From Labilithrix sp. (GTDB taxonomy: Bacteria; Myxococcota_A; Polyangia; Polyangiales; Polyangiaceae), in NCBI GenBank assembly GCA_019637155.1, contig JAHBWE010000005.1:62001-126000 (forward strand): DNA of 64,000 nt, given 5' to 3'. Positions 11,202 through 18,954 of the stretch are shown here, in pieces (position 1 is the first letter of the stretch; each line of letters starts with the position of its first letter). Under the pieces are notes generated by a model. That model ran no database searches, had not been told where the DNA came from, and saw nothing but the letters and a program-made list of their open reading frames with translations. The translations under genes were made by a program, and so were the position numbers.

Positions 11202-13238
11202 TCACTTCCGGCTCTGCAGCGTGTTCACGCGGTCCTGGCCGCCCGACGCTCCGAGGTGCGCCTTCAGCGCGGCGCCGATCTCCTCGAGCGTCGCCTTCGG
11301 CGCGGGGCCGAGGAGGAGCGGGCCGCCCTCGCAGTCGACCTCGATGTGATCGCGCACGCGTTTGTACGCGCGGATCTTCCGCCATGGCCGCGCGGCGCCT
11401 GCGAACGTGATGCCGTAGCTGTCGACGACGACGTCGAGCGGGAGCGCGGTCGCGACGCCGAGCGCGGCGAGGATCAGCGGCGCGAGGAGCACGGTCGAGC
11501 CGACGACGAAGAGCATCGACGGTCGATGGCGCGAGAGCTGGTAGTACGCGCCGAGGACGAAGATGCCGAAGGCGAGGGCGTGGAGGAGGACCGCCGACGC
11601 CCAGAAGAGGAGCGGCCGCCCTACGCGGAAGAGCGCGCGGTCCTCGGGCGCGATCGCGGCGGCGCGCATCTCGTCCGTGATCGGGCCGTGGCGCAGCGAG
11701 CGGCGCACGAGCGCGACGAAGGCGGAGGCGAGGAGCAGGTTGAGGACGACCGCGAGGATCCCCGCGCCGTCGGTCGAGAGGAGCGCGTCGAAGAGGCCGT
11801 GGCACGCGGCCGCGAGCGCGATCCACGCCCACCGCCGCGTCTTCGGATCGACGAGCGTGTGCCCCAGCGCGTAGCCCCAGAGCGCGCCGAAGAACATGTG
11901 CGCGGGGACGCTCATGAAGCAGCGCGCGATCACGAGCGGCGCGTTGAGGCGCCCGATCGCGAAGTAGCGGATGTTCTCCGCCGCCGCGAAGCCGAGCGAC
12001 GCGACGATGCCGTAGACGATCCCGTCGACCGGCTCGTCGAACTCCGCGCGCCGGACCGCGAGCTCGCTCGCCGCGCGCTTCGCCCCCTCCTCCGTGAGGC
12101 CGACCACGACCGTGAACACCGCGAAAGAGAGCGGGAACGCGAACATCTGGCCGCCGTACGTCACGAGGTTCGGATCGAGCCAGTGCGACGAGCTCGCGAG
12201 GAGCTCCTCGACGAACGCGGCTGGTACGGTGGAGACCGCGCCGAGGAGGAACGTCGCGCCGATGAGCCACATCGGCTCGGGGTGCGCGCGATCGAAGCGC
12301 CGAATGAAGAAGAGCCACCCGAGCGAGAGCAAGATCGGGACGACGAGGCACGCGATGGTGAGGGTTCGGTTCGGCGGGAGCCCGACCGCGTCGACGCGAC
12401 GGAGGGGAGGGAGGCGCGGCGTCGCGAGGAGGATGCGCTCGCGCCGCGCCCGCGCGTAGGCGCCGGCGCCCTCGCCGAAGTCGACGTGGAGCGCGTCGTT
12501 CGCGAAGGCCGGCGCGCCGAGGGAGATGCGGCCGCGCGCGAGGACCACGCCGGCGGGATCGTCCTTCACGCCGTCGATGACCGCCGCCGACGGCGAGCCC
12601 GACTCGGCGCGGACGCGGATGTTCGGCGCGCCGCCCCAGCCGACGATCGCGCCGTCGCCGAGCTCGCCGCGCGGCGCCGCCCGCACGACGCGCGTCCGCC
12701 AGCGTAGGACGGCGAGGCCGTCGGACGGCGAGGGGATCGGCTCGGCGACGATCTTGTGGTCGCGATCGATCGTCCACGTCTCGATCGCGCGCAGCACGTC
12801 GCCGCGGCGGCCCTCGTACCAGACCTCGCCGTCGGCGCCGCCGCGGGTGAGGTTGGCCGAGGTCGCCGGCGCGGCGAGGACGACGGTGGGATCGCGCTCG
12901 AGCACGAGGAGCGTGCCCGTCCACGTCGTCAGCTCGTCGACGCGCGGCGCGAGGCTCTCGTCGACCACGATGTGGAGGCGCGGCGGACGGCCCTCCGCCT
13001 CGTCCTCGTCGACGTCGGCGCCGATCTGCGCCGCGCCGAGCCGCGCGAGCACGAGCGCGCGGAGGTCCTTGCCGAACCCCTGCGCCGGGATCGGCGCGCC
13101 GACGACCTCGTAGGTGAGCTCGACGTCCTTCGTCCCCGCGAACGGCGTCGCGAGCGGCTCGCGCTGGCCGCCGGGCGTCTCGCAGCCGAGCAGGCCGAGG
13201 ACGAGGAAGCAGAGGAGCGCGACGAGGACCCGCTTCAT
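11202..13238 (-). CDS. PrsW-family intramembrane protease with extracytoplasmic N-terminal domain
   Basis: The 678-residue protein starts with MKRVLVALLCFLVLGLLGC, a membrane or lipoprotein signal. An unassigned soluble domain of about 270 residues follows, then a multi-helix membrane domain. That domain contains EEGAK near residue 381 and the downstream FAAAENIRYF motif. These are the glutamate/Asn motifs of the PrsW (peptidase M82) and related glutamic intramembrane proteases. A PH-like C-terminal tail of about 120 residues follows the last helix. PrsW proteins cleave membrane-bound anti-sigma factors and related substrates; the substrate here is not known. The ATG overlaps the pheA stop by four bases (ATGA), so translation is probably coupled to pheA. 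Confidence 0.78.
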   Translation of the reverse strand: MKRVLVALLCFLVLGLLGCETPGGQREPLATPFAGTKDVELTYEVVGAPIPAQGFGKDLRALVLARLGAAQIGADVDEDEAEGRPPRLHIVVDESLAPRVDELTTWTGTLLVLERDPTVVLAAPATSANLTRGGADGEVWYEGRRGDVLRAIETWTIDRDHKIVAEPIPSPSDGLAVLRWRTRVVRAAPRGELGDGAIVGWGGAPNIRVRAESGSPSAAVIDGVKDDPAGVVLARGRISLGAPAFANDALHVDFGEGAGAYARARRERILLATPRLPPLRRVDAVGLPPNRTLTIACLVVPILLSLGWLFFIRRFDRAHPEPMWLIGATFLLGAVSTVPAAFVEELLASSSHWLDPNLVTYGGQMFAFPLSFAVFTVVVGLTEEGAKRAASELAVRRAEFDEPVDGIVYGIVASLGFAAAENIRYFAIGRLNAPLVIARCFMSVPAHMFFGALWGYALGHTLVDPKTRRWAWIALAAACHGLFDALLSTDGAGILAVVLNLLLASAFVALVRRSLRHGPITDEMRAAAIAPEDRALFRVGRPLLFWASAVLLHALAFGIFVLGAYYQLSRHRPSMLFVVGSTVLLAPLILAALGVATALPLDVVVDSYGITFAGAARPWRKIRAYKRVRDHIEVDCEGGPLLLGPAPKATLEEIGAALKAHLGASGGQDRVNTLQSRK

Positions 13239-14733: not shown

Positions 14734-15519
14734 GTGTCGTGGCGCAGCGTCAGCGGGGCGTGTGTCGTGCTCGCGGCGTGCAGGGCGTTCGGCGCCGAAG
14801 GGTCGGCAGACGCGACCGACGACGACGCGGGAGCGGAAGCCGATGCGGGGGCCGACGCGGACGTGAAGGTGGACATGCCGCTGGGCCCGAACGCCGGGGA
14901 CGGAGACGTGCCTGAGCGTTTGCACATGCAGTGTTTCAATCTCCTGCTCGATGACGGGCCGTTCGAGTCGCACGGGGAGGCGAAGTGGGGGGACGCGGGC
15001 TGGATCGTGCCGATGCTCAACGGAGCCAAGAACTCGATCTACGCGACGTTCGAGCTCGACGCGTCGATCGGTCGCTCCATCGTCGACGTCGAGATGAAGG
15101 TCGAGGCCGGCACCAACGCCGGCGTCGAGTGGTGGTCGAACGTCATCGCGCACTACTACGGAAGTACGACGACCTTCGAGTCGGGCCCGCCCCTCTGGGG
15201 GCTCCAACTCTCGGGCAGCGGACAGTACGTGGACTTCTGGCCGAATGGTGGGCCGTCGGATCCGCCGCAGAGCGTGGTGAACGTTCCGCTCCGTGAGCTC
15301 GACGGTCGCTTGACCCTCACGACGACGTGGGCCGAAGACGGCGGCGTCGTGATCAGGGACCAGGGAGGACGGAGCACGGCGCTGCCCTTCGGCGTGCTCG
15401 GGAGCGGGCAGCCCGGGTCGAGGTCGCTCACGATCGAGATCGGCGGGTTCGCACCCAACGGCGTGTCGGCGACTTCGTTCACGGTGCGCTCCATCTGCGT
15501 CCTGCTCGAGCGGCGTTGA
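14734..15519 (+). CDS. Lipoprotein with lectin-like beta-sandwich domain
   Basis: The GTG start gives a 261-residue protein with lipobox LAAC near residue 16. An Asp/Ala-rich linker (about 20-60) is followed by a C-terminal domain of about 190 residues. It alternates short hydrophobic strands and ends in FTVRSICVLLE, the layout of concanavalin-A-like jelly-roll domains. It resembles the lipoprotein at 55970 in architecture, though not clearly in sequence. It is probably surface-anchored; the ligand is unknown. Confidence 0.6.
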   Translation: MSWRSVSGACVVLAACRAFGAEGSADATDDDAGAEADAGADADVKVDMPLGPNAGDGDVPERLHMQCFNLLLDDGPFESHGEAKWGDAGWIVPMLNGAKNSIYATFELDASIGRSIVDVEMKVEAGTNAGVEWWSNVIAHYYGSTTTFESGPPLWGLQLSGSGQYVDFWPNGGPSDPPQSVVNVPLRELDGRLTLTTTWAEDGGVVIRDQGGRSTALPFGVLGSGQPGSRSLTIEIGGFAPNGVSATSFTVRSICVLLERR

Positions 15520-15526
15520 GCGGGCG

Positions 15527-17068
15527 TCAGAACGAGGCGCCGGCCCAGAGGCGCGGCTCGTATTGCGAGATGACGCCGACGGTCGTGGAGCTCGTCGTCG
15601 TGAAGGCGAGCGGCGTGAGGCCGAAGAGGACCGGTCCGAACGGGAACTGCGCGCCGACGCCGTAGCGGAGGCCGTACGCGTTCGTGTCGGTGAAGAACTC
15701 GCTCTCGAAGTCGAACCACGTGTGATGCGGCACGAACGTGAAGAGGAGCTCGAAGTGCTTGCCGCCGATGAGCACGAGATCGGCGGCGACGCCGATCGAC
15801 CAGTGGGTCGCCTCGACGTTCACGTAGCGGCGACCTTCGACGCCGACGTCGATCCGCGATTTCTCCGAGAGCCGCAAACGATAGAGCACGTCGAGCTCGA
15901 GGGCCCATCCGCTCGGCACGTCGGGGCGAGCGATCGTCGCGGACGACGCGAGGTTGAGGCGCGCCGTCACGCGCTTCGGCGACTCCACGGCCGCGTCGGC
16001 CGGCTTCGGCGCGACCGCCTGGTCGGCGGCGGCCGCCGCCGGCCCGCCCGTCGCAGTCGCGGCCGCCGGCTCGCCCGTCGCGGTCGCGGCCGCCGGCTCG
16101 CCCGTCGCGGAAGCGGGCACGGGCGCGGGCGCCTGCGTCGTCGGGAGCGCCTCTTCCGCCGTCGCGGGCTTCAGGGGCGCCGGCTTCGGCTCTTGCGCGT
16201 TCGCGGTCGACGGCGCGACGACGAGGGCCGTCATCGTCGCGGCGGCGGCGGCCGCGGCGACGACGAGGCGGCGGCGGCGCGCGAGCGTGACGAAGAAGAT
16301 GCCGGCGAGGATCGCGACCGACACCCACTGCGCGGTGCTGAGCATCGCGTAGCGGCCACGCTCGACGTCGCCGCGGAGGAGCTCGATGAGGAAGCGGCCG
16401 ATCGCGTAGACGACGAGCCAGGTCGCGAACGCGGCGCCGTCGCGACGGCCACGGCGGAGCGGCACGAGCGCCGCGCACGTCGCGAGGAGGCCGACCGCGG
16501 ACTCGTAGAGCTCCGTCGCGTGCACGGGGAGGCTCGGCGCTCCGGCGGGGACCCACCCCGCGAGCGCGTGCGCCTCGGCCGCGATGCTCCCCGCGGGGAA
16601 GCGCACCCCCAGGACCGAGGCGGTCGGCCGCCCGTAGTCGCAGCCTTCGAGGAAACACCCGAAGCGGACGCACGCGAACACGATGCCCATGCCGAGCGTC
16701 GCGCGATCGAGAAAGTCGAGGAACGTGTCGCCGCGGCGGCGCAGGTACACCGCCGGCGCGAGCGCGCCGAAGATGAGCCCGCCGTACGCGGCGCGCCCCG
16801 CGAACGCGATCGGCGCGAACGAGTGCGCGTGGATCGCGTCGGGGACCGCGCGGATCCACTCGAAGAGGTAGCCCCCGACGAGCGCGCCGAAATACGCGCA
16901 GACGATGGCGCGCGCCTGCACGTGGACGCGCGCGCCGTCGCGCTCCGCCTGGCGCAGGACCAGCACCGAGCCGAGGAGCGTCGCGAGGCCGACCATCATC
17001 GCGTAGTCGGGCGCGAGCGACTCCGGCCAACCGTGACGCACGAGCCAGAGGACGAGCACGGGCTTCAT
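15527..17068 (-). CDS. lgt: Prolipoprotein diacylglyceryl transferase fused to an outer-membrane-barrel-like domain
   Basis: The start MKPVLVLW at 17068 begins the first membrane helix and overlaps the upstream stop by four bases (ATGA). Residues 1-280 match Lgt: several membrane helices, YGGLIFG, RFGCFLEGCDYGRPT, HATELYESAVG and GRFLIELLRGD with QW. Lgt transfers diacylglycerol from phosphatidylglycerol to the lipobox Cys of prolipoproteins in the inner membrane. After a helix near 290 comes an Ala/Thr/Pro linker with repeats of ATGEPA. Residues about 370-513 then resemble an outer-membrane beta-barrel, with alternating strands and a terminal Phe (WAGASF). This addition is absent from ordinary Lgt of about 270-300 residues. 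Confidence 0.82.
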   Translation of the reverse strand: MKPVLVLWLVRHGWPESLAPDYAMMVGLATLLGSVLVLRQAERDGARVHVQARAIVCAYFGALVGGYLFEWIRAVPDAIHAHSFAPIAFAGRAAYGGLIFGALAPAVYLRRRGDTFLDFLDRATLGMGIVFACVRFGCFLEGCDYGRPTASVLGVRFPAGSIAAEAHALAGWVPAGAPSLPVHATELYESAVGLLATCAALVPLRRGRRDGAAFATWLVVYAIGRFLIELLRGDVERGRYAMLSTAQWVSVAILAGIFFVTLARRRRLVVAAAAAAATMTALVVAPSTANAQEPKPAPLKPATAEEALPTTQAPAPVPASATGEPAAATATGEPAAATATGGPAAAAADQAVAPKPADAAVESPKRVTARLNLASSATIARPDVPSGWALELDVLYRLRLSEKSRIDVGVEGRRYVNVEATHWSIGVAADLVLIGGKHFELLFTFVPHHTWFDFESEFFTDTNAYGLRYGVGAQFPFGPVLFGLTPLAFTTTSSTTVGVISQYEPRLWAGASF

Positions 17069-18954
17069 CGCGCCACCACCTTCACGCGCCGCGCGCGCTT
17101 GCCGAGGAACATGACTGGGAGCGCGAGCCAGAAGAGCGGCATCATCGCCCCGATCGGCAGCTCGCCCTTCTGCGGGGCCTCCTCGCAGTTGTTGCAGTTG
17201 CTCCCGCCGCAGTTGCAGCTTCCGTCGTTGCAGCTCCCGCAGTTGCTGCTGCTCGACGAAGACCCCGACGACGACGATCGCTTGCTGCTCCCGCATCCGC
17301 TCGACGACGAGCCGCTGCTCCCGGAGGACCCGCTGCTCCCGGAAGATCCGCTGCTGCCGCCCGACGACGTACCGCCGGAGGACGTACCACCGGACGAAGT
17401 ACCCCCTGACGACGACGTATCCCCCGACGACGTACCGCCGGACGACGAAGTACCCCCCGACGAAGTACCCCCTGACGACGACGTGTCCCCCGACGACGTA
17501 CCGCCGGACGACGACGTGCCCCCCGAGCTCGTGCCGCCGACGGGCGGCGGTACGCCGGTGCCGGTGCTGCCGTAGCCGCTCTTCTTACCGGTGCGCGTGC
17601 TCGAGTCGCAGCCCGAGCACGTGGTGCACCCCGAGCACGAGGAGCAGGAAGGACCGCTCCGGCCGTTGCACTTCCCTTGCTCGCAGGCCTTGCTGCAGCC
17701 CTCGTAGAAGGAGGAGCACGAGGAGAAGGGATTGCTGCAGCCCTCGACGCGGATGTCGTTGCTGCGCGTGCTCGGCGGCGCCTCCTTGCGCTCGTCGACG
17801 CCGGAGAGGCAGAGGTTCAGCGCGCGCACGCACGCCTCTTTCTCCAGGAACGGGATCGCGGCGCCGAGCGCGCTCTGCGTCGTCGCGCCGGTCGGCGGGA
17901 CGCACCCCTCCTTCTTCACGCACTCCTGCACCGTGACGATGCTCGCGAGCGCGAGCACGCAGAGCTGGTCGATCCGCGCGCGGTCTTCGAGCAGGAAGAG
18001 GCACTCCGCGCGTCCGTCGGAGAAGTCGAGCGTCGCGTCCTCGTCGCACGCTCCGTTGGTGCGGCAGTCATCGCAGCGCGCCGCGACGTCGGCGACGCAG
18101 CTCGCGAGCGTCGTGTACGTCGAGTACGGGTTCCCGCGGAACGTCGCCGGCGCGACGCCCGGCGCGACGATCGCGACGGGCGGCGCCGGCTCCCCGCCCA
18201 CGCCGTCGACCTCGCGGCTCGCGTTCGCGACGAGCCACGCCGCGTTGACGTAGATCGTGTCGTCCACCGCGACCGCGCCGGCCGGCCACCCGGTGACGCG
18301 GACGAGGTGCGTCGCGCCCGACTCCTCGAGCATCGCGCGCAGCGCGTCCGCGGTCTTGCCGCGAAGCGCCCGCTCCTCCAGCGCGCGCGTCGCCTCGGCC
18401 GCCGCCTCCCCCTCGAGCGTCGGCAACGCGAGCGCGCCTTTCCCCTCGAGCGTCGGCGACGCGTGCGCGCCTTCGGCGGCGTCGCGCGGGCGCGGCGCGG
18501 GGCGCACCTTCACCGCGTCGTCCTCGAGCTCGACGATCGCGAGCGGGAGCGCGTCGGCGGGCAGCGACTCGCGCTGCGCGTCGATCGCGGCGACGATCTC
18601 CTTCGCCGAGAGGCGCGACGGATCGAGCGCGACGCGGTCCTCTCCCGCGCCGCGCTGCTCGAGCCGCTCGGCGGGCGCCTTCTGCGCGGGCTCGGACGTC
18701 GACGCGATGGAGGCGCGCTCGAGCCGCTCCGCGAGCGTCTTCCGCGCGGGCTCCGGCATCGACGCGATCGACGCCGGGTCGGCGCGGAGCGCGTCGCGGA
18801 GCGAGAGCTCCTCGTAAGGAGGCGTGTCCGCGTCGTCGGCGCAGCCCGCGAGCACGGCGAGGAGCGCGCCGGCGATCGCGAGCGCGACCCCGAGCATGCG
18901 GAGCCGCGGCCGCGGCGGTGCGTGGTGATGACATGCCCGTTCCTCGGACTTCAC
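17065..18954 (-). CDS. Cys-rich, Ser/Gly-repeat protein with C-terminal membrane sorting-type anchor
   Basis: The start is uncertain. GTG at 18954 has GGAGG nine bases upstream; ATG at 18897 would begin exactly at the hydrophobic core MLGVALAIAGALLAVLAGC. With GTG the protein has 629 residues. A lipobox-like LAGC is followed by an acidic/Ala-rich helical region, a Cys-rich domain (about 330-470) and a Ser/Gly/Thr tandem-repeat stalk (about 475-580). A Cys cluster, a single hydrophobic helix (GAMMPLFWLALPVMFLG) and a basic tail KRARRVK end the protein. The Cys cluster, helix and Arg/Lys end resemble MYXO-CTERM-type sorting signals. It is likely a surface stalk protein. It is translationally coupled to the lgt fusion. 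Confidence 0.68.
   Translation of the reverse strand: MKSEERACHHHAPPRPRLRMLGVALAIAGALLAVLAGCADDADTPPYEELSLRDALRADPASIASMPEPARKTLAERLERASIASTSEPAQKAPAERLEQRGAGEDRVALDPSRLSAKEIVAAIDAQRESLPADALPLAIVELEDDAVKVRPAPRPRDAAEGAHASPTLEGKGALALPTLEGEAAAEATRALEERALRGKTADALRAMLEESGATHLVRVTGWPAGAVAVDDTIYVNAAWLVANASREVDGVGGEPAPPVAIVAPGVAPATFRGNPYSTYTTLASCVADVAARCDDCRTNGACDEDATLDFSDGRAECLFLLEDRARIDQLCVLALASIVTVQECVKKEGCVPPTGATTQSALGAAIPFLEKEACVRALNLCLSGVDERKEAPPSTRSNDIRVEGCSNPFSSCSSFYEGCSKACEQGKCNGRSGPSCSSCSGCTTCSGCDSSTRTGKKSGYGSTGTGVPPPVGGTSSGGTSSSGGTSSGDTSSSGGTSSGGTSSSGGTSSGDTSSSGGTSSGGTSSGGTSSGGSSGSSGSSGSSGSSGSSSSGCGSSKRSSSSGSSSSSSNCGSCNDGSCNCGGSNCNNCEEAPQKGELPIGAMMPLFWLALPVMFLGKRARRVKVVAR
17340..17530 (-). 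repeat. In-frame tandem repeat coding for a Ser/Gly/Thr stalk
   Basis: Nested repeats are built on a CGAAGTACCCCC-type unit. Two long copies, at 17395 and 17461, are offset by 66 bases and encode SSGGTSSSGGTSSGDT-like modules of 22 residues. All changes keep the reading frame, so this is a coding minisatellite rather than an intergenic repeat. Copy number is likely to vary between strains. Confidence 0.75.

Follow-up and report, generated by a model that had tools for sequence, protein, structure and literature searches.

Organization of the locus

Two genes on the minus strand overlap in the window, by which we mean the whole stretch of 64,000 nucleotides that was analyzed. The upstream gene encodes a Cys-rich protein, here called the partner. 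The downstream gene (15527-17068) is a single uninterrupted frame of 513 codons, starting at ATG 17068, in which an Lgt domain is followed by a predicted outer-membrane beta-barrel. This continuous frame, and its overlap with a gene for an anchored Cys-rich protein, had been recognized in the original prediction, and both hold. A signal-peptide-like segment between the two halves of the fusion had been missed. The features are:

17065-18897, minus strand: partner gene, 610 aa, with lipobox VLAGC and Cys19 at 18841-18843
17065-17187, minus strand: the partner's C-terminal tail, which resembles a sorting signal: Cys571 ... PLFWLALPVMFLG ... KRARR, a single copy per genome
17065-17068, minus strand: 4-bp overlap (ATGA) between the stop codon of the partner gene and the start codon of Lgt
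16268-17068, minus strand: Lgt domain (PF01790 match and alignment), residues 1-267, with seven transmembrane (TM) helices expected
16196-16279, minus strand: internal signal-peptide-like segment, residues 264-291, RRRR-LVVAAAAAAATMTALVVAPSTANA, with a predicted signal peptidase I cut before Gln292
15971-16195, minus strand: Ala/Pro/Thr linker, residues 292-366, hypervariable among orthologues
15530-15970, minus strand: predicted eight-stranded outer-membrane beta-barrel, residues 367-513, with a terminal Phe (AlphaFold2 and structure comparison)

The overlap is exactly 4 bp in all 16 complete fused loci, i.e., the window locus and 15 orthologues, and translational coupling of the two genes is likely.

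A convergent gene (14734-15519, plus strand) encodes a 261-aa protein that is possibly a lipoprotein and has no Pfam match. Another nearby gene (11202-13238, minus strand) encodes a protein of 678 aa with an N-terminus that resembles a lipobox (LGLLGC), an exported region of about 300 residues of no assigned kind, and a PrsW domain (PF13367, 7.4e-32), which is an intramembrane protease domain; such a lipoprotein-protease arrangement is unusual. We considered this gene as a part of the system and rejected it, because orthologous loci (L036, L039 and L040) have sucA-like and mscS-like genes in its place.

The Lgt half

Lgt is a core, much-studied enzyme of the envelope and an antibiotic target. 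The PF01790 model matches residues 22-260 of the fusion protein (E 3.2e-33) over positions 14-238 of 240, which is a whole-domain match; a PDB sequence search with the fusion protein gave no match. The structure of E. coli Lgt has seven TM helices, with the N-terminal part periplasmic (PMC4728403). The C-terminus of the Lgt half should therefore be cytoplasmic, which is the right side and topology for a following signal peptide to start.

We next give residues in E. coli numbering, based on the alignment. The window Lgt retains Y26, R143, G154, Y235, R239, E243 and R246, and carries the substitutions H103Y, N146C and E151C. Thus, within the set required in E. coli (Y26, H103, R143, N146, G154 and R239), four residues are intact, and H103 and N146 are changed. 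Replacements of both are known from other Lgt branches, H103Y from other phyla; E. coli Lgt requires N146, and a mycobacterial homologue with N146C is presumed to be weakly active (PMC13251419). It might be argued from H103Y and N146C that the enzyme is dead. We reject this argument because other Lgt paralogues of the same genome carry like changes: there are four further PF01790 genes, and Cys also occupies position 146 in the genome's other alignable Lgts (own_C16, own_C15 and own_C3). As far as an alignment can indicate, the active-site residues are compatible with Lgt activity, and we expect the window Lgt to transfer diacylglyceryl to a cysteine.

The barrel half

The last ~145 residues had been described as barrel-like, with alternating strands and a terminal Phe, and structure prediction agrees. 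The AlphaFold2 model of residues 367-513, made from a family alignment of 18 sequences, is an eight-stranded barrel with pLDDT 93.4 and pTM 0.85. The top match among solved structures is NspA (TM-score 0.74, Z 17.8), and others are OmpA (Z 16-17), OprF, PagL and OmpW; NspA, OmpA, OprF and PagL all lie at Z 16-18. The barrel half has no sequence family match. Strand alternation in the window barrel exceeds that of within-strand shuffles (z 3.4), and it was above shuffled strands in 10 of 10 family members tested. Based on the model, the barrel probably resides in the outer membrane.

Elsewhere in the source genome (L005:2307-3140, on contig C20), a separate frame lies downstream of another Lgt paralogue; it begins like a signal peptide, and its sequence is barrel-like.

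A signal-peptide-like segment between the halves

An outer-membrane protein is expected to have a Sec signal peptide ahead of its barrel. In the fusion protein a putative signal of this kind is present as an internal segment, assessed by motif and hydrophobicity only. After the last Lgt helix (TM7), a hydrophobic core and then A-x-A|Q/E follow in this order in all 18 fused loci, so that the features of a signal peptidase I substrate, a hydrophobic core and then AxA, are found in every one. In shuffled tail segments, an AxA|Q/E site is expected in 1.24 of 18. The core is mostly preceded by positive residues, and the site itself varies: ANAQ (in the window protein and L072), ASAQ, AFAQ, AHAQ, AAAQ, AAAE and others. 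By contrast, seven unfused relatives (L084-L087 and L145-L147) end shortly past TM7 and have no second hydrophobic segment. The source genome has a signal peptidase gene (PF10502, 1.1e-42).

It is important to emphasize that the window segment makes a weak case as a single sequence (null 0.26) because its h-region is Ala-rich. The strength of the case lies in the set of 18 loci rather than in the window protein.

We also considered that the barrel arises from a separate internal translation start, a possibility raised in the original prediction. In the window gene only ATG279, which falls midway through the hydrophobic core, is a candidate, and no internal start that would yield a complete signal peptide plus barrel is conserved among the fused loci. 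We therefore rejected this candidate, and the barrel must derive from the fused frame. In our reading, signal peptidase I would cut the precursor at the predicted site.

The linker and the possibility of an uncut protein

It was originally proposed that a single protein sits in both membranes by means of a periplasm-spanning linker. In such an uncut protein the segment would be an eighth TM helix, the linker would cross the periplasm to a barrel in the outer membrane, and the two membranes would be tied together where the partner is made. The frame is indeed continuous in 18 loci, and several lineages have long, Pro-rich linkers (118-223 aa) resembling periplasm-spanning segments; TonB, for example, has a Pro-rich segment of this kind. 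However, AxA|Q/E stands right behind the hydrophobic core in 18 of 18 loci. Moreover, the distance from the AxA site to the barrel ranges from 40 to 223 residues across fused orthologues, a more than 5-fold variation, which makes a fixed trans-envelope tether unlikely. The mature linker has about 75 residues in the window protein and 40 in L068; 40 residues reach at most ~14 nm when fully stretched, as compared to ~20-25 nm for a typical periplasm. We conclude that an uncut trans-envelope protein is quite improbable, and that the precursor is very probably cut into two membrane proteins.

The ATGEPA repeats that had been noted in the linker are real (a 27-bp unit in 2.8 copies, 16035-16110) and lineage-specific. 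Their suggested role as the mark of a fusion point does not stand: other lineages have quite different linkers in the same place, with Pro/Tyr repeats or an extra small domain, and we rejected the idea of a fusion scar. The extra domain occurs in L069, L070 and L071, past the AxA site and ahead of a Pro-rich part (DAIVLxTGERxxGxITExSPGDHVxIRLAxGQVTTI...).

Distribution among myxobacteria

When bacterial genomes were scanned with the complete fusion protein, a single full-length orthologue (L037, 40%) came up, together with a Labilithrix orthologue that is cut at a contig end (L036), with its barrel on another contig (L040). Searching 317 genomes of the class with the partner family, we detected it in 27. 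Reading downstream of 20 partner genes, we found a fused Lgt-barrel gene in 15 cases, a fusion cut by a contig end in one (L082, with its barrel on L104), and Lgt only in four (L084-L087). Three additional Lgt-only loci (L145-L147) bring these to seven, and in none does a barrel gene adjoin Lgt. Another family contributes two divergent fused loci (L107 and L108), for which the DNA upstream is either absent or masked. Including the window locus, 18 fused loci, from 8 genera and 3 myxobacterial families, are complete enough to test. The same fusion is therefore carried by orthologues, as the original prediction would have it, and a two-gene version was not seen among the related loci.

A tree of 57 Lgts includes 24 that are linked to a partner gene, of which 21 form one clade (support 100/99). 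Three others, of family f22, adjoin the main clade, and the diverged L008 and L010 lie nearby with uncertain placement. The tree leaves room for a single origin of the partner-linked Lgts.

These data bear on two trivial explanations. The first is an artefact of assembly or frame, in which a lost stop or a frameshift joins two genes, and high GC content does make spurious open frames common in this DNA. This explanation is refuted, with a negligible residual probability: the fusion recurs in 18 loci of independent assemblies, including single-contig genomes (G283-G285 and G300-G302), and the protein sequence is conserved on either side of the joint. The second is that the fusion amounts to mere co-expression, where a stop codon was lost between an Lgt gene and a neighboring porin gene with no functional link. 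Seven cassettes do lack the barrel half, so that the barrel is not strictly needed, and the linker sequence is free to vary. However, the barrel co-occurs with the cassette and selection acts on it (pairwise dN/dS between 0.12 and 0.45), and at strong scores its family is found in the 317 genomes only with the cassette, apart from one relic, and not as an independent gene. In addition, in three unfused loci (L084-L086) the partner is missing its central helical Cys-rich domain, a hint that this domain and the barrel belong together; the barrel-less L087 and L145-L147, however, keep the domain. We consider mere co-expression improbable. The Lgt-barrel fusion is genuine, and neither an artefact nor a chance fusion.

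The relic is a lone barrel in a genome of the same genus (L039:1498-1947, G003:C5), left after loss of the partner and Lgt. It is intact, with 72% identity, and flanked by the same genes (mscS-like and sucA-like). Nothing remains of the partner, Lgt, signal segment or linker, and the barrel has no recognizable signal peptide ahead of it. Its pairwise dN/dS versus G006 is 0.12, which indicates purifying selection, and relative to the window barrel it has not evolved faster than G006. It could be either a recent relic or a protein still in use, and misassembly of this locus is possible.

The partner and its C-terminal tail

The partner consists, in order, of a lipobox, an alpha/beta ectodomain, a helical Cys-rich domain, a Cys cluster, a Ser/Gly/Thr stalk and a Cys-helix-Arg tail. 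It belongs to no Pfam or NCBIfam family. Its ectodomain has two confidently modelled domains; comparison with the PDB gave no match at E <= 0.001, although a known fold is still possible. The stalk is encoded by 33/66-bp tandem repeats (17360-17526), and its length is likely variable.

The tail of the window partner reads Cys571 ... FWLALPVMFLG ... KRARR, and the pattern conserved among partners is C ... WLxxPxxYL ... RRR. A profile of the tail matched only the partner, once per genome, with significant scores in 6 genomes. In layout, with a cysteine followed by a helix and a C-terminal Arg cluster, the tail resembles MYXO-CTERM signals. However, the corresponding model, TIGR03901, matched none of seven partner proteins at E <= 10, while it has matches by the dozen in four genomes that carry the cassette. 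We therefore rejected membership of the partner in MYXO-CTERM.

Which cysteine might the Lgt half modify? One possibility is that the precursor is cut, but that the Lgt half acts on the partner's N-terminal lipobox cysteine or as a general spare Lgt, the tail being an anchor only. The partner does have a normal lipobox, at which the enzyme could act; a lipobox-type cysteine is present in all partners scanned, lipobox proteins are the classical Lgt substrates, and the genome has four other PF01790 genes. Those same genes, however, leave other Lgts available for ordinary lipoproteins, and the fused Lgt pairs strictly with a single partner, whose tail is unique. A further argument comes from a diverged related Lgt at L128 (4334-5670, G007:C673), which overlaps a different gene. 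The product of this gene has an N-terminal helix that lacks a lipobox cysteine; it also contains a Cys array and ends in a Cys-helix-Pro-RRR tail (ARC...LLLPLVVMIGWRRRVRR). Since the L128 partner has no lipobox, what the two pairs have in common is not the lipobox but the Cys-helix-Arg tail or, alternatively, the Cys array. Given these observations, action on the lipobox or as a spare enzyme is unlikely, if less so than the other alternatives above, and dedication of the Lgt to the partner is probable. For the tail cysteine as the target of lipidation, we regard the chances as even.

The L128 locus is a second kind of pair of an Lgt and a Cys-tailed protein, with the gene order reversed and a partner rich in Cys repeats. 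No adjoining gene of this kind was found within the 1.5-kb flanks of the other Lgt loci scanned.

A proposed mechanism

We propose that a two-membrane precursor is cut by signal peptidase I, with its Lgt dedicated to the Cys-rich partner and its barrel being an outer-membrane counterpart; we consider this reading as a whole to be likely. The two genes (17065-18897 and 15527-17068) would make up a cassette with coupled translation that serves a surface protein. Lgt would enter the inner membrane with its seven helices, its C-terminus facing the cytoplasm. The segment after TM7 would then act as a signal peptide, N-in/C-out, and start the export of the tail. Signal peptidase I would cut after AxA, leaving the Lgt half in the inner membrane, and the freed linker-barrel would traverse the periplasm, to be folded into the outer membrane by BAM. 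In the inner membrane the Lgt half would lipidate the partner, most plausibly on the cysteine of the Cys-helix-Arg tail, and the barrel would serve the partner at the outer membrane. That the barrel acts together with the partner seems to us somewhat better than an even bet.

Guo, Haft and Wall (PMC11980579) postulated an Lgt-like enzyme, as yet unidentified, that lipidates the CTERM cysteine before the myxosortase cut. The window Lgt may belong to this postulated type of enzyme, which would attach lipid to C-terminal sorting cysteines. The more specific idea of a one-frame polyprotein, split by signal peptidase I, whose transferase is dedicated to a C-terminal sorting cysteine, we advance tentatively, as slightly less probable than its negation. 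If true, it would fill the step missing for Cys-containing CTERM signals, and the enzyme, its substrate and an outer-membrane receiver would all lie within one two-gene cassette. The cassette offers a concrete, testable enzyme-substrate pair for lipidation of C-terminal cysteines in myxobacteria. Text searches of the open-access literature found no report of an Lgt fused to an outer-membrane barrel, and no description of a precursor serving two membranes in this way.

Comparison with known systems

The window protein resembles known Lgt (PF01790; PMC4728403) in its full-length domain match and in the seven residues that it keeps. It differs in its three substitutions, in having one operon partner, and in its C-terminal signal-peptide-like segment and barrel. 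An extension of Lgt has a precedent in M. tuberculosis, whose Lgt has a long C-terminal extension with no known homology (PMC13251419).

The partner's tail shares with the MYXO-CTERM/myxosortase system (PMC11980579) its three-part build (cysteine, helix and Arg cluster), its occurrence in Myxococcota, and the Lgt-like enzyme postulated there. In contrast to MYXO-CTERM, it contains a WLxxP helix, is a single-copy feature of each genome, comes with an Lgt gene of its own and is not matched by TIGR03901; the conserved cassette includes no myxosortase gene.

LtaS of Gram-positive bacteria (PMC12445088) is likewise a membrane enzyme with an exported C-terminal domain that is released by signal peptidase I. 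LtaS, however, releases an extracellular enzymatic domain, whereas the part released here would be a separate outer-membrane barrel. That barrel is similar to NspA, the OmpA N-domain, OmpX/Ail and PagL in predicted fold, in size and, for most members, in a hydrophobic C-terminal residue. Unlike those proteins, which normally are encoded by separate genes with an N-terminal signal peptide, it matches no sequence family and is made as the end of an Lgt frame.
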